47,041 nt of DNA. Source: Fragilaria crotonensis. Lineage: Eukaryota; Bacillariophyta; Fragilariophyceae; Fragilariales; Fragilariaceae. The DNA is taken from assembly GCA_022925895.1 (NCBI GenBank), contig JAKSYS010000506.1, positions 1 through 47,041 on the forward strand. Direction: 5' to 3'. The notes below the pieces were generated by a model. The model was not told the origin of the DNA, searched no databases, and was given only the letters and a program-made list of their open reading frames with translations. Shown one piece after another: positions 19,809-43,524 of this stretch. The stretch's first letter is position 1; each line of letters opens with the position of its first letter. The translations under genes and the position numbers were made by a program.

Positions 19809-19972
19809 TGAGTAAAAACAGTCGTACAGAACATGGGAAACATGCGATAGCGTAACATCGTAAAAGGTATTATAACAGGAGAGCAAGCACACAAGCCTAC
19901 TTATCGCCGTGTACCAGTACACCGTTGGACTGTTACAGTGCTACTGGTTCGCAATACGGATACATTAAATCA
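19809..19972 (-). repeat. 3' LTR of the copia element
   Basis: 164 bp, seen on the plus strand as TGAGTAAAAACAGTCG...TACATTAAATCA. It shows no mismatch to the LTR at 27597-27760. Confidence 0.95.
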
Positions 19973-20126
19973 GTCCCCTCGAGCTAATGGGGTCGGGAAC
20001 CGTCGGGCACATTAGGTCGTCGTCTAATGATTGCGATACTGGTCTTTTGTCACAGTGATATTTAGCTGCCATCATAGGGCAAGCAAGGGAACCCTAGTAA
20101 CCTTCAAACCTCATTGAGGGGGAGTA

Positions 20127-23100
20127 TCAACTGTGATCATTCAGGTCGTACAGGATCAGGCCTACTAGATGGTCACGCTTCTGACCACCGGGTATGATCT
20201 TGGTACAAATGTCGGCGGGGTTATCATGTGTTGATATATGTCCCGTCAAGCACTCGCCCATTGCCACTGCCTCGCGCATGGCATGATAACAAACGGCGTT
20301 GGACTTTTTCTTTAGCGTCGACTCCGGTCGTTGAGTGTTGTGGATGACGGACATATTGTCACCATAGATGTATGACGGGCCGGACAATAAGACACCCATC
20401 ATGCGTAGTTTGTAGCGGATGCCACGAAGGGTTTCCATCCCTTGTTTCATGGCCACGAACTCGGCTCCAAAAACACTTGTCTCAATCGTGGACTGTTTCT
20501 TTGAAAACCAAGTAATCGGCGCGAGGTTCATGTATATTAGGAACCCGGTTCGAGATCGCCTCGTTCGCTGATCCCCAGCATGGTCCGAGTCAACAAAGAG
20601 GCGTAAATCCACCTCCTTGCCTCTCGGTTCGGGTGCATTAGGTGGTATGGCCTCAATTACGTTACCGTAGTACTGTTTCCAATCACACTCCTTAAAAACC
20701 GTCATATCAATGTCGGGATATGTTGGGTCGAACACAATTCTCGCATTGTGTTTCTTTTCAAGGTACCCGAACAAATGGAATACGGCCTCCAGATGTCCCT
20801 CACGCGGCATGGCGAGGTACGATGCGAGTTCCGAAACTTCAGTTATAATGTCAATACGGCTCAGTTCCACGCACCATCGTAGAACGCCAATTTGCGACTG
20901 ATAAAAAGTTGACTGCGATGCGTCGAGCATGGGTGTTACATCTAGTTCCGGCGAGTAGTTTAGCGGGAACGGTCCCTTTGCTTGTTTCAACCATTGCCGC
21001 GTCGGGTAATGCTTCTTGTGATATGCCTTTACATTGGTCACGGCAGCCTGTACATACTTGCTGGAACTCATCGCCCACGCACAGACGCCGTTCGGTAGCC
21101 TTGTCAGACGGAGTTTTGCCCCAAGATAGTACTCTGGGTCACGTATTGATCCCGGCTTAGTCTTGAAGAAGTGGTCGATCTCATTCAAAGCGCGGATGCT
21201 ATCATGATGGACCATAAGTATGTCATCAACATACAGTAGGCAATAGGCATAATACTTATACCCATCATCGCCACGGATTTCGGGCTTCATCCATACGTCA
21301 GGGTCAGCGATGCAGGACGACCAGCCCAGGTGGCGCATACAGTCTGCTAGGTGATTCCGAAAGGAGGCACCCGCAGACTTCAAACCATACAAAGCGCGTA
21401 CGATGATCGCCATTTTTTCAGCGTCCCGTCCAAACTCGGGTCCAAGCCTGCACCAAATCTTCTCACCAACAGGAGCCGTGAGGTATGCATTTTCAATATC
21501 GGCAGTTTTAACCTCGAGATCGTTAAGGGCGGCGAGTGTCAAGGCTATGCGTACAGACTCCCTAGACACGACGCTGGCATACGTCACGAACGCTGGCGGT
21601 GACTCAGTCATGTGTCCACCGGCAACCAGCCTTGCCTTTCGTTGGAAATCTTCCATCTTGATGTCAAACACAAGATGACACTTGATCTCTTGGAAAGTAG
21701 GTGGCGGGAGCGTTCCGTCTTCTAGCACCTCAAAAGCGACCTGTACCTTTGCCATTTCCTTGCGGATTGCGTCTTGCCAAAGAGTATTGCCGTTTTCACG
21801 GTCAATCCTGAGGCAATCTTCAAATCTTTTCGGCACCTCGATGCCGAATTTGTGTGTACGTTTGTGATAACGCGCATTTACGGCCGCGATGATTCGATTA
21901 CGCCGTCGCAGCGTATACGGTACCCACCATGCAAAGGCTGGTTCGCCGTCAATCCCATGTGCTATGGCGTAGTCGGCCACTTCCACCGGGTTTGATTCTT
22001 TTAAATCGGCGAGTCGCTCCCACGATGTCGTTCCATCTTTCCATTCCACGCAAAGCTTCCAGCCCTTTGTGGTTTTGCGTATATGGCGGTTGGAACCACG
22101 CTGGACGTACATGTCGGCGCGTTCAAGTGCAGAATCATCTTTCCGGTGATCAACGATTCCCTCCAGCAAGATGAATTGATTCCCCTCAGTATCGCACATG
22201 GCGTACATGCTCTGGGCAATCACATTTGCCGCAAGTTCCGCTGTCTGGCCGTCAGAGAACACAACGTCAAACGTCCGTGTATCAAGTATCGGATTTACGT
22301 TGGCCTTCCCAGTGAGTTTTCCGTCGGCCTTTCGTTTGCGACCTTGGACTTTTGCACTGAGCATCTTGTCCCCGATTGGAAGTGTAACCTCCGCCCCCAC
22401 ATATTGGTCGTATGTATCTACGTCGACTTCATCATCGGCGTCCGGGGCTGGGGACATTTCACTATCATCATCATCACCATACCGTTCGTATGTAGGTGTA
22501 TCGAGATCCTCAAGTTCAGGGTCGTTAATAAAATCCTCATACTTAAAACCTTCACCGAGGGCAGAGTTAATCTTTTCAGTGAAGAGTTGACGTTTCACCT
22601 TCATGGTTTCGTCTGCAATTTCGTCAGGTGTTAACGCTCGTACGGTAGACCTATATACGACCTGGCCGTTCTGCTTTAGGACCTTGCGAGTCATCGCAGG
22701 CCCAATATCTATAGCAGGACCGAGATCGCGTCCAAGCACCATTGTATCGTCCGGATACGTGACTGACGTGTCACGGAATAAAACCCACTCGTACCACTTG
22801 AATAGTGCGAATGGTGATATGTCGGCGGTCTCACCGCTGACGATAGTTTCTGGTACCTGGCCGTCAAGACGGTAGATATCATGCGCGGTGTGGGATCTGA
22901 TATACGCTTCACGCTCGAGGCAGTCATCCCAGAGACGCTTCGGCGCAGCAGATCTAACCATCTGTCGACCGACGCCTTTCTTTAATTCGCGGATTGCAGC
23001 TTCCGCGGCGTTTGACCACGGAGTGTGCGGTTCCGTTTGTCGTACTCGTACACCAACTTCTCGACATTTTCTCCGAAAAAGGCCCATAGTCTGTTCCCTC

Positions 23101-24209
23101 GCACCATCCATGATGATAGTGTTTGGGACGCCTTCCCGCTGGAAGAGTAATGACAAGCCTTCGTGTGCCAGGGACTTCTTCGACATTGGAAAAGCCCGGC
23201 ACCAGCCTTCCGGCGTAGCAAATATTTGAGCATACTTGTTATTTCGGCGTGATGCCGTGTTTGATATCAATGTGTCGGTGAAGCAGTCTACGGGTAGACG
23301 CCTGTATCGTAACTGCCTATCGTTCGTCCTGAAACGTCTAGACAAGGTTGGGTGGAGAACTGTCCGGACTCCTCGCTGCGTTGTCACGTCAACCGTTCGT
23401 TTGGCAGTTTGTAGGTCGATACCCCAATTACGTGCAAGAGTGTGTGCCTCAAATTGCTTACCGGGGACGGAGGGTCGGATCCCTGCCAGTGTGACGCTAA
23501 GTGTGCGGGAAAAAGAAAGCACATCGAGTGTCGGTGTCGTTTGTTGTAAAGACAATGTCGGACCGTCATAAACAACGGTTGAAAACATGTTGGAGACCGC
23601 ACAAAGGCGGCGCAACGGAGGCGGGGCGCCTATACGGTCCCCTGTCTGCGACATGTATTTCAACAATGTCTCCTCTTGCTGTGCGAAAGAAGTATCAAAA
23701 GGGTCGTACACTGGCTCATCACTCGTTAAGGAGAAGTGAGGTAGTGACTCGTACTCCACAAGGGTGGGCTTGCGGGTCGGGAACGAAGACGTGACGCCAT
23801 GTAAGGAGAGCGGGATCACATACGGTTGATCGGAACCGTCAAAAGGGATTGCGATCGAATGGGTCAAGTCGGTAAGTTGGTCAGTTAAGAAACGAGGGCA
23901 ATCGTTTACAATAACGTCATTCAACCGAACTTGCATAGTCGATAGCAAATTGTGACTGATGTTGGGGAGGTATATTGCTTGATGGACAAGCAGAATTACC
24001 GTCTCACCAGTCACAGGGTTGTCGTATGCTAGTGCACCTGTGACTGTCCGCATGTCCTTATCAACAGGACCGTCAGGGTTGTAACCCGTCACGTTGACTG
24101 GACGATCATAGTCGTGGACAATCAGCGCGTTGCTGCCTACGGCACACTGGTCGGCGTGTGAATCCAAATCAGTTCTACTTTCGTTAGAAATCGAGACTGA
24201 GATGTCCAT
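20127..24209 (-). CDS. Copia pol polyprotein (protease-integrase-RT-RNase H)
   Basis: 1360 residues without interruption. Protease: DLDSHAD (14-20) and NISHNLLS. Integrase: D312, D368 and E403 form the DDE triad (34 residues between the last two), preceded by a segment at 255-305 with no HHCC zinc finger. Residues 560-600 are acidic. At about 682-760 a chromodomain-like module (KLCVEWKDGTTSWERL) sits between integrase and RT. RT lies at about 800-1010 with AYLTAPVGEKIW and YVDD at 993-996. RNase H has D1207 (DSDHAGD), E1250 and D1284 (YGDN). The frame upstream of the ATG is open back to a TGA at 24249-24251. Every key residue is in place, so the enzyme set looks competent. Confidence 0.93.
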   Translation of the reverse strand: MDISVSISNESRTDLDSHADQCAVGSNALIVHDYDRPVNVTGYNPDGPVDKDMRTVTGALAYDNPVTGETVILLVHQAIYLPNISHNLLSTMQVRLNDVIVNDCPRFLTDQLTDLTHSIAIPFDGSDQPYVIPLSLHGVTSSFPTRKPTLVEYESLPHFSLTSDEPVYDPFDTSFAQQEETLLKYMSQTGDRIGAPPPLRRLCAVSNMFSTVVYDGPTLSLQQTTPTLDVLSFSRTLSVTLAGIRPSVPGKQFEAHTLARNWGIDLQTAKRTVDVTTQRGVRTVLHPTLSRRFRTNDRQLRYRRLPVDCFTDTLISNTASRRNNKYAQIFATPEGWCRAFPMSKKSLAHEGLSLLFQREGVPNTIIMDGAREQTMGLFRRKCREVGVRVRQTEPHTPWSNAAEAAIRELKKGVGRQMVRSAAPKRLWDDCLEREAYIRSHTAHDIYRLDGQVPETIVSGETADISPFALFKWYEWVLFRDTSVTYPDDTMVLGRDLGPAIDIGPAMTRKVLKQNGQVVYRSTVRALTPDEIADETMKVKRQLFTEKINSALGEGFKYEDFINDPELEDLDTPTYERYGDDDDSEMSPAPDADDEVDVDTYDQYVGAEVTLPIGDKMLSAKVQGRKRKADGKLTGKANVNPILDTRTFDVVFSDGQTAELAANVIAQSMYAMCDTEGNQFILLEGIVDHRKDDSALERADMYVQRGSNRHIRKTTKGWKLCVEWKDGTTSWERLADLKESNPVEVADYAIAHGIDGEPAFAWWVPYTLRRRNRIIAAVNARYHKRTHKFGIEVPKRFEDCLRIDRENGNTLWQDAIRKEMAKVQVAFEVLEDGTLPPPTFQEIKCHLVFDIKMEDFQRKARLVAGGHMTESPPAFVTYASVVSRESVRIALTLAALNDLEVKTADIENAYLTAPVGEKIWCRLGPEFGRDAEKMAIIVRALYGLKSAGASFRNHLADCMRHLGWSSCIADPDVWMKPEIRGDDGYKYYAYCLLYVDDILMVHHDSIRALNEIDHFFKTKPGSIRDPEYYLGAKLRLTRLPNGVCAWAMSSSKYVQAAVTNVKAYHKKHYPTRQWLKQAKGPFPLNYSPELDVTPMLDASQSTFYQSQIGVLRWCVELSRIDIITEVSELASYLAMPREGHLEAVFHLFGYLEKKHNARIVFDPTYPDIDMTVFKECDWKQYYGNVIEAIPPNAPEPRGKEVDLRLFVDSDHAGDQRTRRSRTGFLIYMNLAPITWFSKKQSTIETSVFGAEFVAMKQGMETLRGIRYKLRMMGVLLSGPSYIYGDNMSVIHNTQRPESTLKKKSNAVCYHAMREAVAMGECLTGHISTHDNPADICTKIIPGGQKRDHLVGLILYDLNDHS

Positions 24210-24248
24210 TGAACCTAATGACCGGAAAACCGCAAGAGACGCCGCCAG

Positions 24249-24458
24249 TCACTTGGAGTCATCGGTTGTGGACTTCTTCTGACGAGTGAGAGCGGAGTTG
24301 GTGCGATTTGCACCGACTTTTGCCTTTTTCGTTGGCGTTTCCTCCACGGAGGACACGGAATTGCTGGAGCCAGCCGTGTGATTATCGTCAACTCCAGTCT
24401 TGCTCATCTGCATCACAAGGTGGTTTTTGGTGACTTGAAAAAAATAAATTGAGTTCAA
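24249..24458 (-). CDS. Short gag-end or linker frame in phase with pol
   Basis: 69 codons; from the internal ATG at 24407 it reads MSKTGVDDN followed by a Lys/Thr/Ser-rich segment and ends in TGA (24249-24251). The next in-frame codons continue without a stop into the pol ATG at 24209. The TGA is followed by C, a context associated with leaky termination in some systems. It may be a nucleocapsid-like basic tail that becomes joined to pol by readthrough. No zinc knuckle is present. Function is inference. Confidence 0.4.
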   Translation of the reverse strand: MNSIYFFQVTKNHLVMQMSKTGVDDNHTAGSSNSVSSVEETPTKKAKVGANRTNSALTRQKKSTTDDSK

Positions 24459-25653
24459 AATATATTGATAGTGAACGGGGACTATTCACCAAATAAAACT
24501 ATAATCAACATTTATGTTGATTATTCATCGTTTATTTTAGTATGACGTTTTAAAATAATTACATACATCACTTGTTTTGTTGAGTTAGATCACCGTGTGT
24601 ATTGTGTCTACAATGTTTAAATTGATAACTATGACAATGTGAAATTCATAACAAGCTTAAAACTCTGAGTACATACACACTAATTTTAAATGTATCACGT
24701 ACATCATATTTTTTGTTGATTTATATCACCATGTAGATTGAGTGGCTGACATGTAAATTGAATACTACAACAATTTCCATTCAAAACTAGCATTAAACTC
24801 TGAGTTCACACACACAACTCTGATCGAATCAAGTTTGAAACCAGATTGTTGCTCCACCTCTTCTCCCTCATCCGAAGTCCACAATACACCACCAATGACA
24901 GCAACATTCTTTCTGGCTCAACCCTTATGGTGCCAGAAGCAAGTCAATCCTTGTTGCCTCCATCTGCATTGTGATGACAGTTGCAGTGTCCTCATTCTCC
25001 GAACAAGGACACCACAATTCTCGAATGTTGGTGCTTTTGCCATTAGAGGATTGAGGTGTCGTTGTTTTCTTGATCAGTCTTGTCGTTGTTGCTGTTGTGT
25101 GTGTTACACATACATTTTTGTGATTTGAATCCAGTTCGAGCATCCGCATTTTGAATTCCTGTAGCGATGTACAGAAGTCCTACGAGCACAACCTCTGGTA
25201 ATTTTTGTTACAATTTCAAACCGGACAGAGCTGGAAGAGTAAATTTTTAAATTCCAGCCATTCACCGGACATTCTTATCCTTTTAAGTAAGAAATGACTT
25301 TTTATGGTGATATGAAAACACCAAGTCAACCTCTTGGAAAAACGGTTGCTACTGCAGAAACAAATTTATGTTTTTGTTGACTCCAGTAGAAATGAATTTA
25401 TGGAATCCACCGTGGGTTGACTCCCAAAGAAATAAACTTATTGGATCCACCGATTTTGTTTACTTCTCAAAAATTAAATTTGTAATAGTTTTATAAGTCA
25501 TCGATTCTATCACCAACTCAAAAGAACCATTACATTTAATACGTTAACATCTTAATATAAAAAATAAATACGTAGATATCACTTTTTAATGTTGAAAATG
25601 ACCATAATCATAACTATAAACAGTCATTATTGACTACAAGTAGATCAACTCAC
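24408..25653 (-). other. AT-rich 1.25 kb spacer between gag and pol, possible intron or insertion
   Basis: Strikingly AT-rich compared with gag and pol and without any credible frame. On the minus strand it begins just after ...TGGCATAAA with GTGAGT, a good donor, and could end at GATGCAG before ATGAGC. Splicing there in phase 0 would join the end of gag to the pol-phase frame. It contains a diverged ~150 bp duplication (24560-24690 and 24695-24820; shared ACTCTGAGT and CACACACA) and ~40 bp repeats around 25376-25490 (GTTGACTCC). An AT-rich insertion is the alternative explanation. Confidence 0.4.
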
Positions 25654-27054
25654 TTTATGCCATGTTGTGATGTGTTTCGCCAATTGGGAAACTTGGCGAT
25701 TCATGACCTTCCTGAGATTCTTGATCACCTCGGCCTTCGCCTTATTGCCGTCGGTCCTGACTTTGCTGTCCTTCGCGCCAGGTTTATGGCCCCGCTTGAG
25801 GCGCTTGGAAGCGAGCTCCTTCTTCTGATCAGCAGAGAGCGCGGCGTATTCGTCCTTGGTGTAATAGCGGTCCTCAATCGCACCGGCCTTGCGCTTTCCG
25901 CCACTTGTCTTTAGTTCCGAAATGTTGACAGTGTTATTGGGCCGGGTCTTGGTTGTTTGGCGTATATAATCTTGATACAAGGTTACACAGCCGTCAAAAT
26001 CAAGTCGCAGCCTTTCGTCTGACATGATTCGTGTCTTGACTGCGTCAAACTTATCGGTTTTGATGCCATCAAGTAGGTAGCGTACCTTGGATCGTGGATC
26101 TATCCCCGTGTAACCGTGTTCCACCAGTCCCTCCATAATCGAGTGCTGTTGCTTGTGGACATTGACGTACTTCTCGAAATCCCAACGGCGTTGCTCACCA
26201 TTGTAGACGGTTGACTTTAACTTGTCTTCGGCCATCGCGGCCATGTTGTCGACATTGTTAGGTCCAAGATAATGCAAGTAAAGACTGTTGTAAGCCATGC
26301 GACCATCACGAGTTTTCTGCGCCGGTTTGACATATGTCCAACAGGACAGGTCACGTGTAATTCGAGAGATGATTTCCCATACCTTTTCGCGGTTTATAAT
26401 GTAGGTGGGATCCAGAGTTCGCACCCCTGCAGTGTTGACGACATAATGAGGCACCCCTGCAGTGTTGACGACATAATGAGGCGCCCTTGCAATCATCTGA
26501 TCCTGAATAGTTGGATAAGTCAGGTCGGCATCGTCGGGCACTTCAATGTCTTTACGAGTGACGTAGGCAAGTGGGATTTTGCGTTCCCCCAGAACCGAAC
26601 GGAGGTATTCGTCGATCGCCTCCATCGTCTTTGGCCAATCTTTGGCGTTGATCGTTGGGAAATCCTCTGGCTTCTTGTATGAAGCCTCGAACTCTCGGAG
26701 TTCACGAAGTTCTCGGATCGCATCGAGGGTGACGTCGGGGGCATTAACAGTCTTGCTGATTCGAGCTTGATGACGCAAATAGAAGGCAAGCAGCTTTAGG
26801 TGGCCTTCAGCTCGTTGGTTGACATTCACGCCAGGGTTTGGTATGTTAACGGCACCTCCAACGGCGCCTCCCGGTGGGGCAGGAATCAGTCCCCCAGGCC
26901 GGCGGATTACCTTAATGAGGCTTTCGATCTCATCGTCGCTAAGCAGCCTTATTTCTTCAAGGGTGTCCAAACCCTGTTCTTCAACAAGGGCTTGAGCGGC
27001 AGCTTCAGTAAAACCAATGCGGGTCATGACCGCGCGCATTACCGCATTGTTCAT
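25645..27054 (-). CDS. Copia gag capsid-like protein
   Basis: 469 residues from the ATG at 27054 (MNNAVMRAVMTRIGFTEAAA); the same frame is open upstream to an ATG at 27303, which would give 552 residues. I prefer the inner start because the extra part reads like leader sequence (YIYIYRIS). The start region EEQGLDTLEEIRLLSDDEIE resembles gag of diatom copia elements, from my knowledge of that group. The C-terminus is very basic (KRLKRGHKPGAK) and has no CCHC zinc knuckle, so nucleic-acid binding probably relies on this tail. Residues near the middle carry a 10-residue duplication (PHYVVNTAGV twice). Gag assembles the particle in which RNA is copied. Confidence 0.75.
   Translation of the reverse strand: MNNAVMRAVMTRIGFTEAAAQALVEEQGLDTLEEIRLLSDDEIESLIKVIRRPGGLIPAPPGGAVGGAVNIPNPGVNVNQRAEGHLKLLAFYLRHQARISKTVNAPDVTLDAIRELRELREFEASYKKPEDFPTINAKDWPKTMEAIDEYLRSVLGERKIPLAYVTRKDIEVPDDADLTYPTIQDQMIARAPHYVVNTAGVPHYVVNTAGVRTLDPTYIINREKVWEIISRITRDLSCWTYVKPAQKTRDGRMAYNSLYLHYLGPNNVDNMAAMAEDKLKSTVYNGEQRRWDFEKYVNVHKQQHSIMEGLVEHGYTGIDPRSKVRYLLDGIKTDKFDAVKTRIMSDERLRLDFDGCVTLYQDYIRQTTKTRPNNTVNISELKTSGGKRKAGAIEDRYYTKDEYAALSADQKKELASKRLKRGHKPGAKDSKVRTDGNKAKAEVIKNLRKVMNRQVSQLAKHITTWHKVS
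26421..26480. repeat. 30-bp tandem duplication inside gag
   Basis: GCACCCCTGCAGTGTTGACG... occurs at 26421-26450 and 26451-26480 with no mismatch. It is in frame, adding ten residues, so gag stays open. Confidence 0.95.
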
Positions 27055-27582
27055 GTTGACACCAGGGATAGCAGCGCCACGAAAGAGTGAGGACAACGCC
27101 GGTCGTTGACCCAGCAGAGGTACTGATTTCCCCAGTCCGTTGATCCGTTTTAGCCGTTCAACGGTGATCAAATTAAGCTTAGCGTCGGTTGTGCCAGGAA
27201 ATATTGAAATTCGGTATATATAAATATATGTCCTGGTGTCCAGCACTAAGCTGCACCTAACGGTTGTGGTGCGAGTCGAATTCGTCCACGATGGTATGGA
27301 CATGGGTCAAGGCGCCCCTTGGGCCCCATCGAGGTTGCCAGATTCGGTTTGACATTCAGGTGTATCGGGATGCAGAGACCACCGGATACCCTCCCAGGCT
27401 ACATGCTCCATCAATCATGTTTGAGTTCACTGGAAGTGGGCAGTTCGAAGCATACCTAGGCATAATAATGGTCGAACAGCAGAACAACGTGACTTGAGAG
27501 TATGCGGATCCCTCATCCTGGGATGATCTACAAACCACGGAATAACGAAAAGGCATGGCGTCAATGCCCGTCCCAGAGCGAT

Positions 27583-27596
27583 TGGGTCTGATAAAC
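27583..27596 (-). promoter_or_regulatory. Possible primer-binding site
   Basis: Directly inside the 5' LTR the element strand reads GTTTATCAGACCC. TATCAGA matches the core of the initiator-tRNA(Met) primer site used by many copia elements (TGGTATCAGA). The match is short, so this is tentative. Confidence 0.35.
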
Positions 27597-27760
27597 TGAG
27601 TAAAAACAGTCGTACAGAACATGGGAAACATGCGATAGCGTAACATCGTAAAAGGTATTATAACAGGAGAGCAAGCACACAAGCCTACTTATCGCCGTGT
27701 ACCAGTACACCGTTGGACTGTTACAGTGCTACTGGTTCGCAATACGGATACATTAAATCA
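27597..27760 (-). repeat. 5' LTR of the copia element
   Basis: 164 bp, the partner of 19809-19972. It carries the element's promoter by analogy with other LTR elements; no TATA box was assigned. Confidence 0.95.
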
Positions 27761-27885
27761 TCCGGACAACAAAACTTCGTACGAAGTTCCAAGGGCACAT
27801 AACCAGATAATTTCAGCTTCGATTTTCTTGACCCCGAGTGTCGTCCGGACAAGAAATTTTAGTTCGAAGTGTCCAAGTTCTGAAC
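27761..27885. repeat. Imperfect ~80 bp tandem repeat between copia and DDE element A
   Basis: TCCGGACAACAAAACTTCGT at 27761 and TCCGGACAAGAAATTTTAGT at 27845 start two diverged copies (both continue CGAAGT...CCAAG). No gene is seen between the copia LTR and the TA at 27967. Confidence 0.55.
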
Positions 27886-27968
27886 TCCCAAGTTTCCGAC
27901 GAAGGTCGAAGGTGAGTACAATATGTACAGCAGCTTTACATACAGAGTACCACGTACAGTACCTGGTA

Positions 27969-30900
27969 CAGCAGGTTTCATGCTAGACCGTCCTGGCGTA
28001 CCCCCACGCACAATTTATACTAAGTATACAAAGTCCCACAGTAAAATTCTGAAAGATTTTTTGCAATCGAACTCCCTCCTTGACGAGCGACGACGTATCA
28101 TAAAGAGCATCATTCCACATCTTCATCAGGACTTCTTCTTGCTTCATTTGCTTCCCTTAACTGAGAATTGACAAAGCCACGGTCAAAATCAAGGGCGCAT
28201 CGGTGTCCTTTAAAGGCTTTCATGAGCCTCTCAATCTCATTGTACAAAAGCTCTTGTTTTATATGAGTTGGAATGGCAGCGTGAGTACCAGCACCAGCTG
28301 AATTCGCTTCTTCAAGTTTCTGATCAAGATAGTGGTAAGTGCAAATATATGCACGCGCTCTTGCAGCGAACTTTTCTATTCTCACTCTGCTTAGAACATC
28401 CACAGGGCATGTGCATTCTCTTACAAGTTCTTTGAAGTTCTCTCGCCCTCGCTTTCGGGACACTGGAACTCGTCGGTAGAATGACTTCGCATGTGCCCAG
28501 CTGTATTCTATGCCTTCACCAGCAAGTTCAGCATGAAATTTTGGCGTCAGCTCAACACGAACTCCAAGTTGAGTGCCCAAATATTGGAGAGCAGTTTCCT
28601 CTGTCTTAAAATCCACACACTCCGCCATAAGATGCCGAAGGGAGTATTGTAAGTCGACATGTCCTGATGTTGGATCCTTGCGTCCGTCCAATGTATACCT
28701 CCCTAATGACCCTTCCAAAATCAACCCCCGCTCCCAAAGGACTTGCAGAAGGCCTTTAGGCTTTCCTTGCCACCCTGCGATGACTCCTTGCTTCTCTTCG
28801 AACACGTCGATGCCATGTCGCCTTGCAAATGTTTGTAACTCTTTCCTTGTGTAGCCCCGTTGTTCTGGCATCTCAACTCCAGCTTCGGACAGAGCTTTGA
28901 TTAAGAGCTTCTTTGACCGTTCAACTTGCCTGCTCGTCCCTGTTGCTGTATCATGTCTCTGAGCTTCTCTCTGATCATGGGAGAGGTACCATGGACCAGA
29001 ATCGTGTGGTTGGAAAACCATGGACTGAGTGTCGCCAACGTTTAGTTTTGGTGAGTGCGAGCCAAGGTAACCATCTGCTTGTAAAATCATTGTGTCTCTC
29101 ATCATTGGCTGTGCCCCTCCGAAGGTTCGGGGTCATGACATATGAAATGCACTCAGAGCTCCGCTTCGCTTGCGTGCGTGACCCTGACTATGATCAAACA
29201 AGAAGACAAAATCGTATTCAGAATATAGAACCTGCAAACAATCCACGACATCTTCGAATTGCAAGCTCATGTGATAACTGTTCCAATAACCCTCGTTGTT
29301 GGCTCCGATGTAGAGATACTTGACAAACGGCGATTCAGTTAACAGCGGTTTTTGGGTCGTCTTTAAAATCTCCATGGCAGCGTGAGTGTCAAGGTAAGTC
29401 TTGTGTGTTCCTCGCCTTTCATCATTGACCTTCGCTAACTCTTCCGCCGTCATCTCCCGTCCGAAGCCAAACTCTCTCGCAACGAAGGCAGAAAGCATAT
29501 CATAGCCGTCGCCATCGGACTTCGGGAGCAACGGGCGTTGCCCTTTTTGGTCCTGTCCATGTCTTGCTTCCAAGCAAGTACTGAGCGAAGACGCTCTCGT
29601 CTTGGCCAACTATCATCAAAGGCCGTGCCTGCAAGGAAACGCGAATGCTTTTTGTTGGTGTTATCTTGTCGGTGTTGTCGTGATCAGCAGTCCTCTCGTT
29701 CTTTCTTGTTGCTTGATTCCAGTAGTCAATATGGAATTCAATCCTGTCCTGGTTCCCGATAATATCATGATACAAATAACCGAATGTGAGATTAAGATTC
29801 ATTGCCTTTGCTTCATCAACCGATACTTGCACCCAGCGTTTACAGTAGGGCTCAAATTCTGTTAGATAACGTTTGCAGAATATTCGCCGATTGGCTACCA
29901 CATCATCACGTTCATGGCCGTCAACGTAAAAGCTCTTTTTCCTTGAATCGTAGTTAAAACCGAGACATCGCATCCACCGCCAAGTTGTCGTCAAACCTAC
30001 AGACTCCAGTCTGTGAGCATTTAAGAAGGAACGGATTGGTGTGTTGGCATCCTCATCTGGCAGTTCAGCACCCGCAGCATTGCCTGTAGTAGTGTCAGTA
30101 GTACTCGCTGGTGGTGTCACCACACCATTTTCTTCGCTCCGCCAAGTTCTTGCTAGCCTTGGAATCACTGATGTGACAAGGAAATCGTGAACTCGCTCTA
30201 TAGTTAGTGTTGCTAAGTTCTTGATGCCGAAGGAGACAATCTGGTCCTTGGCATCGGGAAACAGTTCGAGCAACCGCGGGAGTGGACGTTTTCCACATTG
30301 AACATACGGATTGGGGTGCGGAAAACCCTCAAATTGCCTGAACACCTTGTTCCAATTTGCAACGGTCTTGAAGAACGTTGCCTGACGGAGTCCAAGGCTA
30401 TTCAGAACCTTGCATGCCTGCTTACAACAATCATGCCATGTTATCTGATTCATGTTGGTCAACGCTATCTGGTACGCACAACAAAGGAAGGTCGCCCGTT
30501 GTCGAATCTCAAAAATCTCGACCTTGGTGCAGAAGTTGTTCTCGTCCCTGCCGATTAATATGTTTCTCCAGCCGTCCTCACAGTCATGCACAGATTGTAG
30601 CAGTCCTATCCGTCGCTTAACTGCCTCATGTGCAGTTTCGTTGCTGCATTGCCTCGCCTCGCCGCCATCGTTGTCGGTACTGACAGCTGGTGGTGGTGTC
30701 AAAGCTCTCGTTATCCTTGTTGGACGAAAGAGTCGACGTGCTTCAGGGCTATCAGGCCAGTATGACATTGGTACGACAGAATCCTCCTCCCTATGCTCTA
30801 ATCTTGGGCGTTTCTGTGGTGACGGCTGTTCGTTAATTGCTTCTGCACACACATCATCCAAATTGGTAGATTCAGTCGTGTCGACACGAGTTGCGAGAGT

Positions 30901-31550
30901 GATTGCTGGTCTCGCTCTTGTTGAAGGAATGATAAGGGCATTTGATGCCGTTTCCAGCACTCTTTCCTTCCAAGCCTTATTCAAGGGATACGGATAGCTT
31001 ACCTGCCTTGTTTCATTCGTCAAATAATAAAAGTGTTGATGATTGTAGTTGATTCTGAAGACTCCGCTCTGATTTGACCCGTCAAATCTTGACATGACGG
31101 ATCCGAATGTAGCGGCCTTGGACATTGCCGTATTAAACTTTCGAACGTCAATGACAATTGCGGGATCAATGTGTCCCGTTTTTTTAAGTGCTTCAACCCA
31201 TGTTGACGCAGGGAGCCAGCAGTTTGACAATCGAGGTCCGTACACAGGATCGGCGCGAATCAACATCACAGCATTCACAAAAATAGTGTAAATGCCTTGG
31301 TCAGCCATCTTGACTATCAACCCAACTTCGTCAGATCGACTCTAAAGTGTATTGAGAAGGCAATTGTCAGGGTTGGGTTGATAGATCAGAGTGCAATGTT
31401 GTGTTGAGCGGCATGAAATCTCATTGTGGAATGCCTTGCTTCCAACACGAGAATATTCTCATTTGATTACGTCATAACTAAAATTCTATTGGCTACACGT
31501 ATGTTTTGTACTGGGTGCTGCGCCAGGTTTCTTGGTGATGAAACCTGCTG
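27969..31550 (-). mobile_element. DDE transposon A (3582 bp, TA target)
   Basis: Ends are CAGCAGGTTTCA (27969-27980) and its inverse (31539-31550), each flanked by TA (27967-27968 and 31551-31552). Inside the shared 12 bp the two ends differ: the 5' end continues to AAACCTGGCGCAG, the 3' end to GACCGTCCT. It carries one transposase gene on the minus strand. TA duplication plus a CAG...CTG boundary and the D-D-E spacing fit the IS630/Tc1/mariner-pogo supergroup. Confidence 0.85.
28110..31308 (-). pseudogene. DDE transposase, element A (two lesions)
   Basis: From ATG 31308 (MADQGIYTIF). It consists of an N-terminal region with probable DNA-binding helices, a conserved FYVDGHERDDVVANRR motif, then the catalytic core. 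Core motifs: GQDESVF (first D), FLFDHSQGHAR (second D) and FHAELAGEGIEYSWAHAK (E). Between second D and E lies a SAP-like segment (GYTRKELQTFARRHGIDVF) followed by KGLLQVLWERGL. It ends with FKGHRCALDFD and an acidic tail. Lesions: one extra base in the T5 run at 29544-29548 and a TGA at 29133-29135, which interrupts an otherwise continuous frame. Apart from these it is whole, so activity may have been lost recently. Proteins of this kind (DESxF ... DGHER ... ERG ... KFHxEL) occur in fungi and algae, from my knowledge. Confidence 0.75.
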
Positions 31551-31585
31551 TACAGCAGGTTTCATTTCCGATAAACCTGGCGCAG
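31518..31585. repeat. Nested palindrome at the A/B element junction
   Basis: A perfect 28 bp palindrome (31538-31565, centre TA at 31551-31552) is formed by the two adjoining terminal repeats. It is bracketed by a 13 bp inverted repeat, CTGCGCCAGGTTT (31518-31530) and AAACCTGGCGCAG (31573-31585). The whole 68 bp could extrude as a cruciform. Confidence 0.95.
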
Positions 31586-34500
31586 GAAACAGTATAAACT
31601 CTACGCGACTAGATTTTTGTTCTGCATGTGACGTCATATTTACAAGTAGTTGTCGTGTTAAAAGCGTGAGTTCCACCATGAGATTGCATGCCGCCGTTTG
31701 CCTTGTTCCCACTCCTTACAAAGTGCCTCACCCTGGCAATCCTCTCCAGAATACCCTCTAGAATTCAACAGAGTGATTGAGGCACTTTGCAATGGCCGAC
31801 AGTGGTCGAATAAACGCAATAATAGCAAGGGCTGTGACCGTTCTTTTGGATGACAGCCGATTTGGACCGAGATTGTCAAACTGTTGGCTCCCGGCCTCAA
31901 CGTGGGCAGAAGCTTTGGCCAAATCAGGGCACATTGATGCCTCCCTTGTTAGTACTGATGCTCGAAAATTTAACGTTGCCATGTCGAAGTCCAATTTATT
32001 TGGTGAATCGATGACACGTTTCGATGGCACCAATCAAACAGGAGTGTTCCGAGTGAAATATGCTCGGCAATATTTCTATTACTTTACTGAGAAAAATCGG
32101 CAAATTGAGTATCCATTTCCATTGAATAACACATGGAAGGATAGGGTCCTGCAAGCTGCGGCTAACGTGCTCGTAATTCCGTCAACTCGGGCAAGACCTG
32201 CAATATCCTCAACTGCTATTCTTCACGACAACGACAGTACTATCGAAGGCGATGAGTCACCAAACAAACGTCCAAGAATAGAAGAACGCACAACAACAAT
32301 GTCATATTGGCCTGATAGCCCAGAAGCCCGCCAAGTTTTCAGACCAAGAACTATGAGGACAATGAGGACTGCTGTTAGCAGTACTGGTCGTGATGAGGAT
32401 GGCAATACGATGACACTTTCTGGAGAAAGTGCGAAGGAAGCACTGGAGCGAAGGATCAAACTGCTACTGACGGTTCATGAGAAAGAAGATAGCTGGCGAA
32501 CTATAGTCATGGGAAGAGATGAAGAGAACTTTTGTACAAAGGCTGAGATATTTGAGATCCGACAGCGTGCTTTATTTCTCTGCTGTGCCTACCAATTGGC
32601 ACTCTCAAAAATGAACGATTGGACGTGGCATGACTGTTGCAGAGAGGCCTGCAATCGTTTAAATAGTCTAGGCCTTGTGCAGGCAACATTTTTCAAGACA
32701 ATCGCGAACTGGAACAAGGTTTTTAGGAAGTTCGAGTGCTTCCCACATCCCAACCCGTATGTACAATGTGGAAAGCGACCCTTGCCGCGACTCCTCGAAG
32801 TATTTCCAACTGCGAAGGACCAAATAATTGCATATGGAATCAAGAATCTAGCGACACTAACAATAGAAAGCGTCCACGATTTCATCCTTTCTTCTGTCAT
32901 TCCAAGGCTAACAGTACTGTGGGAGAAGGAGATGATGGTGCCAGCGGACGATTGCGACAATACATCCGAGCCAAGAAGTCGAGCGATTCATTCATTTCTT
33001 AAAACTCATCGGCTTGAATCAATGAGTTTGACTACCACTTGGCGATGGATGCGTTTGCTAGGATTCCAATACGACACGAGGAGGAAAAGTTTTTACGTTG
33101 ATGGTCACGAACGTGACGATGTTGTCGCGAGTCGTTCTACGTTTTGCAAGCGTTACCTAACAGAGTATGAACCATACTGTAATCGGTGGATTCGACTACC
33201 TTTGAGAGAGGCAACAACAATCAAGAATCTTAACGTTGCATTTGGCTATTCCTATTTTGACATTATTAGCAACGAGGAATGGATCGAGTTCCACGTCGAC
33301 TATTGGAAGAGTCGTATTATGGAGGAAAACGACCAAACAACAACCGCCAGCCATCAATGATATCCAGATTGAAGAAAAGAAAGCAACCACCAGCATTCGT
33401 GTATCAAGCGCAACGAGGCCGATCATGATCGTGGGGCAGGATGAGAGCGTCTTCGCGCAGTACCTTCTTGGAAGTAAGACTTGGGTAGGACCGAAAGGCC
33501 AACGCCCTCTCCTACCCAAATCGGAGGGCGATGGCTTTATGCTATCAGCCTTTGTGTCGAGAGAATTTGGATTCGGAAGAGACCTGTCGGCAGATGAGTT
33601 AGTAAAAATAAATGCAGCAAGGCGAGGAGGTGACAGGACTTACATTGATACTCAAGCTGCACTAGAAATTTTGAAGTCGACAAAGAAGCCCGTCTTGACG
33701 GAATCACCATTCGTAAAATACTTGTACATCGGAGCCAACAACGAGGGATATTGGAATAGCTACCATATGAGTCTACAGTTTGAGGACGTTGTCGATTGCC
33801 TGCAAGTCTTGTATCCTGAGTTCGATTTCGTGTTCCTGTTTGATCACAGTCAGGGACACGCTCGCAAAGACCTGGGGCACTTAATGCCTTTCAAATGTCG
33901 AAGACCTATGGTGGCGCGCAGGCAGTAATGAGAGACACGACAATAATGAGTAAAGACGGATACCTTGGGGAACACGTACCTCGATTGAATGTCGGTGACA
34001 CTCAGTCGTTCATTTTCCGCGCAGATGATTGTGGTCCATTTTATCTGTCACCAGAACAGAGAAAGAGCAACGACACGATCGACCAACTGGGAAATTCAAA
34101 CGTGTGGAGCGGTCAAAGAAGATGCTCATGAACGCCTTAAGTGATGCTGGAGTATCATTTCAGCAGCAACGGAGTTACACAAAGAAGGAGCTTCAAGATT
34201 TTGCAGGATCCGTGGCATTGATCTTTTCGAAGAAGAACAAATAATTGCGGGATGGCAGGGGCAACCGAAAGGCCTTCTGCAAGTCCTAAGGGAAAGAGGT
34301 CTTATTCCTGAACACTCGTTAGAAAAATATACACTTGATGGTCGAAAAGATCCAATCACAGGCGTTGTCGACTTACATTATTCGCTGAGAAATCTACTTG
34401 CCGAGTGCACCGATTTTAAGGAGGAAGAAACAGCACTACAATACTTGGGGACTCAACTTGGAGTTACAGTTCAGCTCACTCCAAAGTTTCACGCCGAGCT

Positions 34501-35066
34501 AGCGGGTGAGGGGATAGAGTACAGTTGGGCGCATGCAAAGGCATATTATCGTCGCGTTCCAGTCTCAAGAAAGCGAGGACGTGAAAACTTCAAAGATCTG
34601 GTAAAAGAATGCACCTCTCCTGCTAAGGTGTTAACAAAAGCCAGAATTGAGAAGTTTGCATCAAGAGCTCGCGCCTATATTTGCACTTACCATCATCTTG
34701 AGCAGGTGCAATCAGCACGAGCTGCCGCAGTTGCTGGTGTTGATCCAATCGCAGTTTTGCCAAAGAAGTGCTCCGTACACTGACATTGAGAGGGTCAGGA
34801 AGGCCTTCAAGTGTCACAGGTGTGCCCTTGACTTCGATAGTGGTTTCGTGAATTCGGAGCTCAAGGAAGAAGCAACAACAAGAGAGGAGGTGAATCAAGA
34901 CGATGATGATGAAGTGAATTCGGAGTAAGAATGAGTTTTATGATGAGCAGCGTGGAGGCAATCTGATTTCGGAAGGATCTTTCAGAATTTTACTTTAGGA
35001 AATTGTATGATGTGTAGAAATTGTACTAATCTGTACGCGAGGACGGTCAAGGGTGAAACCTGCTGT
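31553..35066 (+). mobile_element. DDE transposon B (3514 bp, TA target)
   Basis: Same 12 bp ends as element A: CAGCAGGTTTCA at 31553-31564 and its inverse at 35055-35066, followed by TA. Its 3' subterminal GACCGTCCT also matches A. It carries one transposase on the plus strand, so A and B are transcribed away from a shared TA. Confidence 0.85.
31792..34928 (+). pseudogene. DDE transposase, element B (several frameshifts)
   Basis: Starts MADSGRINAII and aligns along its length with element A at clearly more than half of residues by eye, so the two are relatives rather than fresh copies. All motifs survive: FYVDGHERDDVVASRS, GQDESVF, FLFDHSQGHAR, a SAP-like segment, and FHAELAGEGIEYSWAHAK. Frame changes occur near 33330, 33865, 34085, 34205 and 34760. 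For example, the region after HARK continues as ALNAFQMSKTYGGAQ only in another frame. It cannot make a full protein. Confidence 0.8.
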
Positions 35067-35178
35067 ACAGTTATGATTCAGCTGACCTTGGTTCTCTTGT
35101 GTACTGTAGTACTAGTACTAGTACCAGGTATTCCATAACTCTGGTTTGTGCGTTCGTCTACTAACGTTCTGGAGTACA

Positions 35179-36110
35179 AGTACTCGCATAAACATAGTAT
35201 CTGGACGACCAAAATTACGAGAGTAGCTGGACGGATTTTGAAAACCACTCATTTCACCACATTCATGCACGAAGATTGTGCATTTCAGTAACTAGAGAAT
35301 TGTACTATACCCTCAAACATATGGGGTTACTGTAGCTTGTTTGTGGTGAGGTGGGACAGTTCAAAAGATGCGGCGAGTTAAAATTTTGGATTTTTTTGGG
35401 GAATGTAAAGTTTTGCTTCGTAATTTAATTGCACATTTTTGTATCATGTCAACAGATGCAAAGAACGACAGTAGTGCTTCTTTGACACTGTTAGTACTTG
35501 TTAGTATGCCGGTATTCTAATGTCCGGTCAAATTTGCAGTCACATAACTTACTTTTGCATTTCTGACGGCCACTGCAAAATCAACATGGTCAAAGTCAAT
35601 TTTGAACATTGAAGTGCGTCAACGTCGCAATATTTTAATCCTACGGCACTTTCCATATGTTTCATACAAAAAATTGCATGCTACTAATTTAATCGCATAC
35701 AAAGCAAGAGTTTCATTACGAACTTCGAAATTTTACTGCTGTCCATCTCAATGCCAATCCGAATGTATTTATTGCTGAATACATAAATTTCAAGATGGCA
35801 CAATTGTAGAATAGGCCCTTGTGATATATTTGTAACGTGAAAAAAAACTTGTTCCAACTTGACATTGTCAAAAGGGACTCAATTTGCCACACTAGTGACT
35901 GAAAGTCCAGGTACTATGTTAAAAAAAATCTCGAAAAATAAAATTAGACCACTCATAACTCCATCAATAGATATTGTATCACGGCTTTGAGTAGCTGAAA
36001 AGAAAGCCTTTCATGAGATCTACAATTTGGTGCCGTTAGAAGTTGTGTATGAAGTGTCCCTACACAACGAATAATTTTACTTGTCCAGGTACTATGTTTA
36101 TGCGAGTACT
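35179..36110. mobile_element. Non-autonomous element with inverted ends (~932 bp)
   Basis: AGTACTCGCATAAACATAGT...CTGGAC at 35179-35206 is the inverse of 36083-36110 with one mismatch in 28 bp, and weaker similarity continues inward (AAAATTA). The inside is AT-rich and has no credible gene. A partial extra copy of the end (GTCCAGGTACTATGTT) lies near 35903. The tip AGTACT is itself a palindrome, so the exact edge and target duplication cannot be told apart. It fits a MITE or a deleted DNA transposon. Confidence 0.6.
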
Positions 36111-36196
36111 CCAGACTCCAGAGTACTCGGAGTACTCGGAGTGTACTCGTATGGTGTATGGTATTTTTTGCGGGTTATAGACGGGATTAGAGATTA

Positions 36197-36238
36197 TGGC
36201 TGGGTGCAAGTTTTGTGAATTTAAGGTAGCCACCGTAG
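36197..36238 (+). repeat. Left terminal inverted repeat of element C
   Basis: Two conserved blocks of 12 and 14 bp separated by 16 variable bases, mirrored at 39714-39755. Such bipartite ends are typical transposase binding sites; which block is bound is not known. Confidence 0.85.
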
Positions 36239-36394
36239 ACACAGTATGCTATTTTTTTAATTCATGCCGACAGCCATTCTGTTTATCTCGTCGATCACCA
36301 CACTTCATTGTTGATGACCTTCACCAACACATATCTCACGTTCCGTTGCGTCTCCCGCGTGCACCGATAGCTCTATATCTTCGTAAAGAACACC

Positions 36395-39300
36395 ATGAGC
36401 AGTTGCAGCATCGGTGCACGCGGCAAACATAATGCATCAACTTTTATCTTGACTTGCATGCGCAAGGTTTTCAGCGAGCACACTCTCCACAGGAGATGGT
36501 TACCAGCTGAACAGCTTCGAATGTATATGCACATGAAATATGAAATTGGCGAGGATATCAAGTTTACATTGAGTAAAATGATGAGAGCAATCGACAAGGT
36601 GCTTCCGCTGACGAGCTCGGTTCCAAATGTCGTCGAAATTCCAGGGGATCACAGCTTCAAGTTTTCCGACATACCTTCCAAAATCGGACAAGGAGATACT
36701 TTTTTGGGTGACGATAGATGTCGGAGAGGTTCCATCTTTCCCTTCGCAGCTAAATGCAACAGCATGGGAACAAGACTGTGTCTTGACTAGACTTTTAGCC
36801 GGTGGTCGCGAACAACCGTTGTGTATGACAAACTTGTGCGAGCCAGAACCAAAGCGACAGAAAGGCATGATGGAAGTGGAGTCTGACCCCGAATTGAGTG
36901 ACTCGAATACACTTCATCCCAGAGCGGCGTTTGCATTCTCAATAGAGAATCATGATTGGTGGGACTCGGGCGATGCACGTCGGCTCTTTGCACCAGTATC
37001 ACCGACCTCCACTTTACGCTACGATACTGATTGCCGTGTCAAGGACATTGTTCTGGAAAGGATTGAGCTACTGGAGTCGGTAAATCGAGCAGCAAGAAAC
37101 TGGAACCTCATCATCGACAAAAGTACGGGTAGTTCAAAAAGCCACTACTACTCGGAAGCTGATGTATTCTCCTTAAGGTATAGGAGCATGTACTTGGCTA
37201 TCGCATTGAAGCAATTTGTACTCAATGTCACTGGTGACATAAGCACCCAGTGGACATGGAAACGGTGCCTACAGTATGCAATTGAAGAAATGAATGATGT
37301 TGGGGTTGAGTTTTATTCTAGTTTTGCAACCCTGTCCCGCTGGCACAGGAAGCTTGCTCGTAACAGATACTATTTCTATAAAGCTCCAGAAGCAAAGAAT
37401 GTGTGTCCCCGTTTCTTTATTGACAATCCCGATGCGATGGAAGCATTCAAGAAGCACGGGGTTGAAAACATCAAGGACCTCAGGGTTGAGATGATGCTCG
37501 AGTATGTCCACTCGCAGTTGATTCCAAAGCTGATTGTGAGGAGGGACTGCGCTTTATTTGACGACAATGGTGATGATGTACAAGAAATTGCAGGACGACA
37601 AGAAGAAATAACTCCTACCACTAAAGACGAATTCTTACAATCCTACGGCCTCTCAACTTTAAGTATTACAACAATGGCAAGGTGGATGCATGCTTGCGGC
37701 TTCAGGTACAAGAAGCGCGAAGCATTACTTCGTGGACGGTCACGAGAGGCCAGAAACCATTGCGTACAGGCCAGTTTTACTAGAAAGTACCTTGATGACG
37801 AGGTACGAGCTCATCGTTGGCTCCAAATGACGTTGACCGAATCAAAGAGTTAGAATCAAATGGAAGCATTGCTCCTAATTGTGGTTACAACTATGTTGTC
37901 GATGGTGTTGACATGGTAGAATATCACATCGACACATCATACGCATTCGAAGAGCGACTTGGATTGCTCCCATTTGGAGGCAACCTCAGTGTTCGCAAGC
38001 CTACGGATTCTAAGACGGTAGTCTTTATCGGACAAGATGAAGCTATATTTAAACAATTTCTATTTCTTACTAAGATGTGGGTCGGCCCTAATGGTGGCGT
38101 CCTTTACTTCCAAAGGATGAAGGAAGTGGTACAATGATATCGGCATTCATATGCCGGGAGTATGGCCTCATCAGAGTGGTGCCACCAGAGACACTTGCAG
38201 AAGTAAATCGTCGACGAATTGGGCAAACATATGCTGATCCTGAGGCAGCGACTGAGATCCTTGGTAGTCCTGACAAGCGACCACTCATCAGACAAGTCTC
38301 CATTTCTCGTCCTTTTTGAGTACGGCGAGAATCGTGAAGGCTACTGGGCCTACAACAACATGGTCCTCCAGTTCGAGGATGCCGTCGACGTGCTCCAAGT
38401 CATGCACCCATCATACGATTTCGTCTTTTGTTCGACCATAGTGCCGGTCATGCGAAACAAAGACCGGATGGTCTAAATCAGTACAGGATGAATCGGTCCT
38501 TTGGAGGCAAGGCAGGTTCAATGCGTGACACTATCATTGCACAGGAGGAGGGTTACCTGGGAGCTTTTCCTCGAAGTTTACAGCCCGGAGATATCCAGTC
38601 TCTTGTATACAGCCAGTCCGACTCTGGTCCCTTCTGGATGTCAAGCACCCAAAAGAAAGCCGACACGACAAACAACTTGGAATTATGACAGATGTGCAGC
38701 TGAAGATACCGGAAATGATTGAGCAACTGAACGTAACTGCTGGTGTCTCTAATGCTTTGGGAAAAAGTATGAGACAGCTCAAAGACCTCTGTTTCCGACA
38801 CGGAATCCCGACGTTCAAGGCTGTGCTGAATTCTATCGAACGTAATCGATCGGGTTGGAGATCGAACTTAGAGGAAAGAATATCACTACGAAGGAAAGAA
38901 TAAAAGAGAGTTAGTTGAGTTATGTCAAAATAACAACATTGCGGTAACAAAGACAGTTGAAAAAATAAAGAAGGATGGGAGGGAAAAGCAAAAGGCTTAT
39001 TGCAAGTTCTCTGGGAACGAGGATTGATTGACGGTGCCAATGTAAAGCAGTACTCACTTACCGGGAGAAAAAATGACTTGGGGACGGTTGATGACAGCAC
39101 CAGCTTACGACAGATCATGGGCATGTGTCACGATTTCATGAATGAGGAGGGAATGTTGCAGCATATCGCAAAGACTCTCGGTGTCAAAGTTCTCTTGACA
39201 CCAAAATGTCATGCCGAACTTGCAGGCGTGGAGTATGTCTGGGCCTGCTCCAAAGGTGCATACAGGAACTTAAGCCTTCAAGCAAAGAAAGGTAAAGACA

Positions 39301-39548
39301 ATTTCAAAGCTAGCATTCGGTATTGCCTGTCGGAAGAGGTGATAACAAAAGTGAGAATCAGAAGATTTGCGAGACGAGCACGACAATATTTAATGGCATA
39401 TCATGCAATCGATACGTGCCAAGTTGATGATGAAACTCAACACGATTGCAAGACTCATGGTCCAGTGGCACTGACAAAGCTGATCGGTCAGTTTAAGACT
39501 CACCGTTGTGCCTTTGACTTTGACTTCAAGTATATCATGGAGGCATGA
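36395..39548 (+). pseudogene. DDE transposase, element C (heavily frameshifted)
   Basis: Same family as A and B but more distant. Recognisable parts: RRWLPAEQL near the start, WWDSGDARRLF, GQDEAIFKQFL (first D), MFDHSAGHAKQ (second D) and CHAELAGVEYVWACSK (E), ending FKTHRCAFDFD. At least seven frame changes (about 36725, 37730-37830, 38100, 38270, 38420, 38690, 38890) break it. The SAP-like segment appears twice: SMRQLKDLCFRHGIPTF near 38770, and KRELVELCQNNNIAV near 38905 followed by KGLLQVLWERGL. Most decayed of the three, so probably the oldest. Confidence 0.75.
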
Positions 39549-39713
39549 TGAGCAACAGCTGTGTTGATCTGTAATGATTTATGACATGCGAATGTAAAAT
39601 GTAAATTTCACTCATCGAAAGATATATATATTAAAATGCTTCATGTTTGTTTAGAACTATACTCCATGAGTACGCTTCAGTTAGTTGGGAACTAAATTTA
39701 TTTTGTACGAGCG

Positions 39714-39755
39714 CTACGGTGGCTACCCAAAATACTATTTATCTGCACCCAGCCA
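39714..39755 (-). repeat. Right terminal inverted repeat of element C
   Basis: Inverse of 36197-36238, with identical spacing of the two conserved blocks and a TA directly outside. Confidence 0.85.
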
Positions 39756-40695
39756 TAGGCGGACACAAGAACCACGAACAAGCTGCTCAACAGAACTTTA
39801 CGCCCTCCAGAATTCTCGATTCCAGACGCTGTACGATTGTTCTGTATATATCCTACTATATTATAAATTAATTGTGTGCGTGTGTGCGTGTGTGCGTGTG
39901 TGCGTCTGTTACGGAGTATGACCACTCTGGGGTACTGGATCAAATGAATACTGTCTCATACTCGGAGTATATGTCATACATGCATACTGGAGTACTCCGT
40001 AAGCGATGTCGGTAAGATTTGCATATACGTAGTTGCGTCAGTGCGTGCGTCTGTTACGGAGTATGACCACTCTGGGGTACTGCACTACTTGCGTATAGTA
40101 CTGAACTGTACAAACAGTACACACAACCGTGCACAAACCATACCGTACACGTATTCCAAAAGTCCGACCAATTGGGAGGTACCCACTAGTTTTGTATATA
40201 TATATGTATAAAAAAGCTCACTGTAGGTCTAGTAAGTACTCTTTAATCTGTAAAATTAGTACAGTACCTGCTACAATTCAGCAGTATTGAATTGCGAGTA
40301 GAACGTAGGTCTCTATGATAGTATTGGGGAATAGACAAGGTCTGGGAATGAAAAGGAGCAAGCCTGCTTCTGGATGCTCGGACGCTGGGACTACACTGCA
40401 AATATGATGGCAAGAGTCGGAGAATGAAGGTAGGATGGTGCTGCGCTAGAGCCTACTGGCTACTGCTACGAAGAATGCACTTACATACTATTTGTTTTGT
40501 ATTTTGTACACGACTTACCACGCTCGTGTTGACGAGAAATCTTTCATGAAACCATCAGGCAACACGAATCAGGAATCAGGACTCTCGGCAGTCGGAACCA
40601 ATCTCGATCATGTGCTGTATTCGCGCAAAAAGGTTTCATTCATTTGATTCATTGTTATTGACCATAAATTGACCTTCTGGCAATAAAGTCAAGCC
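39756..40695. other. Intergenic stretch with microsatellite and 38-bp direct repeats
   Basis: A (GTGTGC)n run lies at about 39874-39905. A 38 bp sequence, GTGCGTCTGTTACGGAGTAT..., occurs at 39900-39937 and again at 40045-40082 with no visible mismatch. The stretch holds many GGAGTACT-type palindromic bits. No gene recognised. Confidence 0.6.
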
Positions 40696-41111
40696 ATGAG
40701 ATTTTTCTTGTCGAAAACGAAGAAATCGTTGAGTGAGAATGATCAGAGTTTGATTAGAAATGCCTCTTATGGTGATCTCGAGGAGGTTCGTGACCTGTTA
40801 CGTGCAGGAGCCAATGTGAATGCTCAACGTGATGATGGTACAACGGCACTTTACATTGCGAGTCAAGTAGGCAGTGCAAATGTCGTCCGCGAGTTGCTCC
40901 AAAACGACAAGGTGGATGTGAACCTCCAACGTTCAGATGGTTCGACAGCCCTGTACATTGCGAGTAAAAGAACCATGAGGAGGTTGTCCGCTTGTTGCTC
41001 CAAAACAACAAGGTGGATGCGAATCTCAAATGTACCGATGGTTCAACAGCCCATCGAATGGCTTGTTCCAAGGGCCACATTGCTATTGCAAGTCTTTTGA
41101 GGTGCATTTAG
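40696..41111 (+). pseudogene. Short ankyrin gene with one frameshift
   Basis: MRFFLSKTKKSLSENDQSLI followed by ankyrin repeats (GDLEEVRDLLRAGANVNAQ, SANVVRELLQNDKVDVNLQ). At about 40970, in the run GAGTAAAAGAAC, the frame slips. The adjacent frame continues with HEEVVRLLLQNNKVDANLKC and GHIAIASLL and ends at TAG 41109-41111, so one missing base explains it. With the slip the protein ends out of frame after 41000. About four repeats in total. Confidence 0.65.
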
Positions 41112-41152
41112 AGTACCGTGGGCTCATCCAGCACTCTTTCAGTGATTATGCC

Positions 41153-42250: not shown

Positions 42251-42505
42251 TCGCCAACGAGTAGGTCTTAAACATCACTGTGAATGACGGGGAACAATAT
42301 CTATTTGACCTGTCTTGACCTTGGCGATGGATGGGCTACTGTACCTCTGTATCTGCTCTATGTGACTCCCACAATTCTTCTAATTCAGCAGTTACGATTT
42401 AGCCACACTGGTAATCAAGTAATGGCAAACAGTTGTGCTGATCATTTCTGTACGGCAGAATGGTTCCAAACCGTGAGTAGGACTTATAGGAGTATGCCGC
42501 TATTA

Positions 42506-43227: not shown

Positions 43228-43524
43228 AGGTGAGGTCTGAGGTCCTACTACTATATATGTTGTGGAGGATCTTTTTTATACACATTGTACAAGATGCTGC
43301 TACTGTACTCATCGGAATCTTGAACATCATTTTGGAACAGGGATTTCTTTTCCACAACAGGCGTCACCTGCGTACCTTTGTTCGAAGGAGGATGGTTTTT
43401 GAAGTATGACAGTATGACACATATATAGGTCTACTCTAGAGTGCAGCCGACAGAAATGTTCTATGATCCGTTATGAGGCCGATTCAGTACATCGACGTTT
43501 CGGTGACACTGATCCACACTACAG

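Follow-up and report, generated by a model that had tools for sequence, protein, structure and literature searches.

Two related but distinct DDE-type transposons stand head to head in the window (the whole 47,041-nt stretch that was analysed, comprising all of contig C455) and have a single TA dinucleotide in common. The pair probably arose by ordinary cut-and-paste insertion of one element at the edge of the other. Element A occupies 27969..31550 on the minus strand (3582 bp) and element B 31553..35065 on the plus strand (3513 bp), with boundaries based on solo copies (five of them full for B), terminal sequences and reading frames. The two align over their full length in opposite orientation, with 66.7 % identity over 3337 nt. 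Their 5′ ends meet at CTG-TA-CAG within a perfect 28-bp palindrome (31538..31565), with the TA alone (31551..31552) and no other DNA between them, and outer TAs adjoin the 3′ ends of A (27967..27968) and B (35066..35067). The original prediction of a pair of transposons that are related yet distinct and have a single TA in common was thus borne out. Its anatomy also stands, apart from the end of B, which had been placed at 35066; this base is the T of the outer TA, B ends at 35065 and the corrected empty site for the pair joins 27968 to 35068.

The sequence CAGCAGGTTTCA begins at 27969 and 31553, and TGAAACCTGCTG begins at 31539 and 35054. Terminal repeats have the form CAGCAGGTTTCA-N11-CCTGGCG at both ends of A and CAGCAGGTTTCA-N11-CCTSGCG in B. 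This bipartite 30-bp repeat (12 bp, 11 variable bases and CCTSGCG) was found at the ends of 17 of the 20 family members tabulated; one inner block is a variant in the element on C260, and the block is absent from those on C137 and C346. Both outer ends of the A and B pair, which are both 3′ ends, carry the repeat. Longer terminal repeats that did not end at CAG had been named as evidence against the original prediction; the repeats are longer, yet they end at CAG.

Solo copies of A and B, searched for across the assembly (62.1 Mb in 881 contigs, evidently from a eukaryote), exist and end at CAG. Full-length solo copies of B are present on C254, C158, C556, C453 and C596 (98–99 % identity), with a truncated copy on C818, while solo copies of A are present on C389 (98 %) and on C68, C647 and C766 (86–87 %). 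The nine full-length A/B-type copies outside the window have the same CAG/CTG ends and a TA on both sides, and all 18 tabulated solo elements are flanked by TA on both sides, those on C137 and C346 occupying the same site. A second subfamily ends in TGGC[AT]GG and is likewise flanked by TA. Exact ends followed by TA numbered 305 in the genome (158 and 147), as against 4 and 7 for the reversed pattern. Several pairs of TGG-type ends face each other about 1.4–1.9 kb apart, below the 3.5-kb class, and perhaps belong to non-autonomous members. A third, degenerate relative lies at 36197–39755, with repeats TGGCTGGGTGCA/TGCACCCAGCCA and a TA on both sides; C12 and C87 also carry its first 200 bp, at 99–100 % identity.

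The junction itself appears once. The 26-bp core of the palindrome had no second place in the assembly with up to three mismatches allowed, and a degenerate junction pattern covering both subfamilies in any orientation matched the window and one further place in the assembly, on C109. The latter was rejected as a single element end adjoining unrelated DNA, with three mismatches. A candidate second pair on C804 was also rejected, as its facing relatives form an inverted duplication with other DNA between them; this duplication (C804:9860–13091, L046 and L024) is 1.5 kb long at 93.7 % identity and includes pieces of a related transposon. Four of the nine full-length A/B-type copies outside the window (C254, C766, C596 and C556) stop 3–12 bp from a contig end, and further end-to-end junctions could be hidden at contig ends.

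The transposase gene of A, on the minus strand, is interrupted in the assembly by a single frame change and one in-frame stop. Its N-terminal ORF piece (606 aa, 29500..31320) contains a putative first catalytic Asp (GQDES), its middle piece (29133..29609) a putative second Asp (FLFDHSQGH) and its C-terminal piece (28110..29105) a putative Glu (HAELAGEGIEY). The plus-strand gene of B has five frame changes and consists of an N-terminal piece of 527 aa (31777..33360), a middle piece with both putative Asp residues (33236..33928) and a C-terminal piece with the putative Glu (34445..34783). A relative on C231 (P0001) has an uninterrupted 1066-aa ORF with putative residues D580, D713 and E941, chosen by eye from motifs, giving a candidate DD227E spacing with 227 residues from the second Asp to the Glu. 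This intact protein matched no Pfam family at E values up to 10, no NCBIfam and no PDB sequence, and a PDB profile search gave one match (E 1.4), to an unrelated fusion protein. The ORF pieces gave sub-threshold matches only, including HTH_33 for the third element and SAP_new25 in 8 of 17 pieces (best E 0.0069). A predicted structure model of 639 residues, from an alignment of 17 rows, was too poor to use in judging whether an RNase H-like DDE fold is present (mean pLDDT 43.2, pTM 0.22). In scans based on short peptide patterns, neither P0001 nor alignment A3 found relatives among viral contigs, and A3 found none among prokaryote genomes. No description of the family was recognised in the portions of the literature that the search covered.

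Among known systems the family can be compared with Tc1/mariner elements, with which it has in common a strict TA target that is duplicated on insertion, short terminal inverted repeats (the 12-bp repeat with its CCTSGCG block), one transposase gene and putative D, D and E residues in similar-looking motifs. It differs in its length of 3.5 kb, its 1066-aa ORF, the absence of a known transposase profile match for P0001 and a putative DD227E, as against a Tc1/mariner spacing of DD34–41E/D (PMC8533490). The Sailor (DD82E) superfamily, recorded in stramenopiles among others, also has a long spacer between the second D and the E. However, its spacer is 78–111 residues and its target duplication mostly TATA (PMC8533490), compared with 227 and TA here. 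From the TA target and the motifs, placement in the IS630-Tc1-mariner group is plausible, and the family, for which the profile libraries used gave no match, probably merits a classification of its own.

Both elements are young, with one private substitution in B and five derived substitutions in A. Private substitutions among the six B copies numbered 1 (window), 1, 1, 3, 4 and 17. Since the split between A and the copy on C389, 5 derived substitutions were assigned to A and 17 to C389, with 4 left unassigned and 57 gap columns. Dating was tried as a means of ordering the A and B insertions and rejected, as five and one substitutions are too few. The copies differ mostly through isolated one-base gaps, and in B 22 of 39 such columns lay in homopolymers of three or more (such homopolymers make up 15 % of bases), which suggests a long-read assembly; the frame breaks in A and B may in part be assembly errors.

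Target sites of the family show a clear bias. GTAC was found at 18 of 38 distinct target sites compared with 10 % of TAs (P=4.5e-9), and R-TA-Y at 28 of 38 compared with 34 %, where the background consisted of the 1793 TAs of the window outside A and B. The 38 sites are distinct ones with both flanks readable and include 19 sampled TGG-type pairs taken from the first 100 of the 305 listed ends. Sites on C556 (contig end, right flank like that of C453), C346 (the C137 site) and C100 (TA mutated) were left out, as were those with one readable flank (C818, C11, C58, C804, C271, C127 and C405). G was present at −1 in 31 of 47 half-sites, a count that still includes C346 and C556.

This bias bears on how the pair could have formed. 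A and B belong to one family of DDE-type transposons, approximately 3.5 kb in length, whose insertions are at TA with a preference for GTAC. An element with CAG...CTG ends landing in GTAC leaves G-TA-C at each edge, here CTG-TA-CAG, so that its own edge is again an acceptable target. The second element to arrive would then have used the TA that adjoined the first at its 5′ end, and this TA would now serve both; B may be the later insertion. Precise ends with a single TA, the identical ends of solo copies with a TA on both sides, the GTAC bias, the empty sites and allele-like match of C526 described below and the youth of both elements are in favour of such nesting, and the original suggestion that insertion of one element into the TA at the other's end is the simplest reading is supported. 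Two observations count against it. Under random insertion the number of end-to-end junctions expected genome-wide is 0.016 (0.016 with and 0.017 without the GTAC bias), from a model with 152 elements, 305 ends and approximately 2.8 million TAs in which the number of CAG-type ends is taken as 40 (52 matches minus 12 controls). The pair is therefore rare; it is, however, one instance chosen after the fact. The second observation concerns the left flank.

Empty sites had been proposed as a check, and the sequence GTACCTGG-TA-CAGTTATG, with one TA and neither element, is present on two other contigs, C526 and C83. To the right of the pair, C526 is identical to the window over 1328 bp (35067–36394) and matches 39600–47041 in two further blocks at 99 %, as would be expected of an allele. 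A repeat of about 930 bp at 35179–36110, with 39-bp inverted ends at 90 % identity, is absent from C83; it has many copies elsewhere, and most of those listed have 97–99 % or 72–91 % identity. To the left, C526 and C83 agree with each other (96 % over approximately 1.19 kb), whereas the window has no homology to either beyond 8 bp from A. The sole stretch left of A that agrees is 27958..27968, with GTACCTGG and TA at its right end, and a local alignment of the two left flanks gave a score of 20, within the range of 200 shuffles. The 8-bp agreement is a weak match, as the motif is common in the genome: there are 13 occurrences of GTACCTGGTA across 192 kb of examined DNA (both strands), and the 24-bp left flank matches 23 other places with up to three mismatches (reversed control, 0). 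GTAC-rich strings such as GTACAGTACCTGGTA are frequent genome-wide. The outer end of A may therefore no longer be in its original target. As the left flank is unmatched beyond 8 bp, there is a rearrangement breakpoint or a misjoin beyond this distance: a second change may have taken place at 8 bp from A, the breakpoint may be A itself, or the contig may be incorrect at this point. Ordinary nesting would thus need a second, separate event with a breakpoint very near A.

Several other features lie further left. A dispersed repeat at 27761–27926 ends near 27915–27926, short of A; its other copies end near GGTGAGTA, which is like a 5′ splice site. Inserted into this repeat is an LTR retroelement (19809–27760) that by eye looks copia-like; its 164-bp LTRs are identical, and TCCG flanks it on each side. 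An 838-aa ORF at 660–3176 resembles, by eye, a tyrosine recombinase.

A rearrangement through A is possible, though rather unlikely. In one version, an alternative transposition (of the hybrid-element type or another) involving the end of A and an end of another copy would have attached A to the TA that borders B at its 5′ end, with the left chromosome arm of A carried along; in the other, the left arm would have been exchanged by ectopic recombination between two copies of A. Within 8 bp of the outer end of A the window ceases to be homologous to C526 and C83, as if the element were the breakpoint, and for the left part at 13600–19800 the best-matching contig is C409 (93 %), not C526. C409 was considered as the partner for the left half and rejected, as it does not continue into the left flank. 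Under this explanation the 8-bp agreement at GTACCTGG has to be coincidental, yet among 70 other half-sites the match never extends past 4 bp, though GTACCAGG is present in 4 of the 70. There is also no reciprocal product in the assembly, the C526-type left flank being found at full length on C526 and C83 only, both with empty sites. Alternative transposition and ectopic recombination events are, moreover, rarer than simple insertion. The cited account (PMC3744419) documents alternative transposition for P and Ac/Ds elements.

Misassembly, in which the assembler would have linked A and B from separate loci, is unlikely. The assembly does break at elements, as in the four copies that stop close to contig ends, and the best partner of the left half of the window is not that of the right half. 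However, the join is base-exact at CTG-TA-CAG, and with long reads, as the one-base gaps suggest, a 28-bp palindrome should be too short to cause a false join. A further scenario, which we regard as improbable, would combine an undescribed lineage of TA-inserting DDE transposons, in which the region from D to E is very long and contains a SAP-like segment and the ends rebuild GTAC, with a pair made by alternative transposition. The end of A would have joined the edge of B with a different chromosome arm, and the palindrome would be the scar of that rearrangement.

Active targeting of the family's own ends, for which further tail-to-tail pairs had been proposed as support, is very improbable: element ends do provide a G-TA half-site in a family that favours GTAC, and one junction was observed where 0.016 are expected, but it is the only one among 305 exact ends in the genome, and one event does not show self-targeting. 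Tn10 channels insertions towards its own terminal repeats, while Sleeping Beauty and mariner autointegrate, Sleeping Beauty without channelling of the Tn10 type in the account cited (PMC3952818). As in nested insertion and autointegration, an element has here been targeted by another of its own family; the difference is that the target is the TA just outside an end, so that neither element is disrupted.

The pair also resembles a composite transposon in that two related elements have correctly oriented outward ends, but it has no cargo, A and B being separated by the TA alone. The mobility of the pair as one 7.1-kb unit, which had also been suggested, found no support, as no second copy of the pair was found in the assembly; it is possible in principle, since the bipartite repeat is present on both outer ends, but these are both 3′ ends.

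On the preferred reading of ordinary insertion at an edge, A and B are a clean example from nature of a transposon inserted immediately beside the terminus of a relative, and they can be compared with solo copies and an empty site. This suggests a rule whereby an element would remain liable to end-to-end stacking if its terminal bases recreate the target motif that it uses. If the left breakpoint is A itself, the locus would instead be an instance of rearrangement driven by transposition among clustered ankyrin and kinase-like genes.
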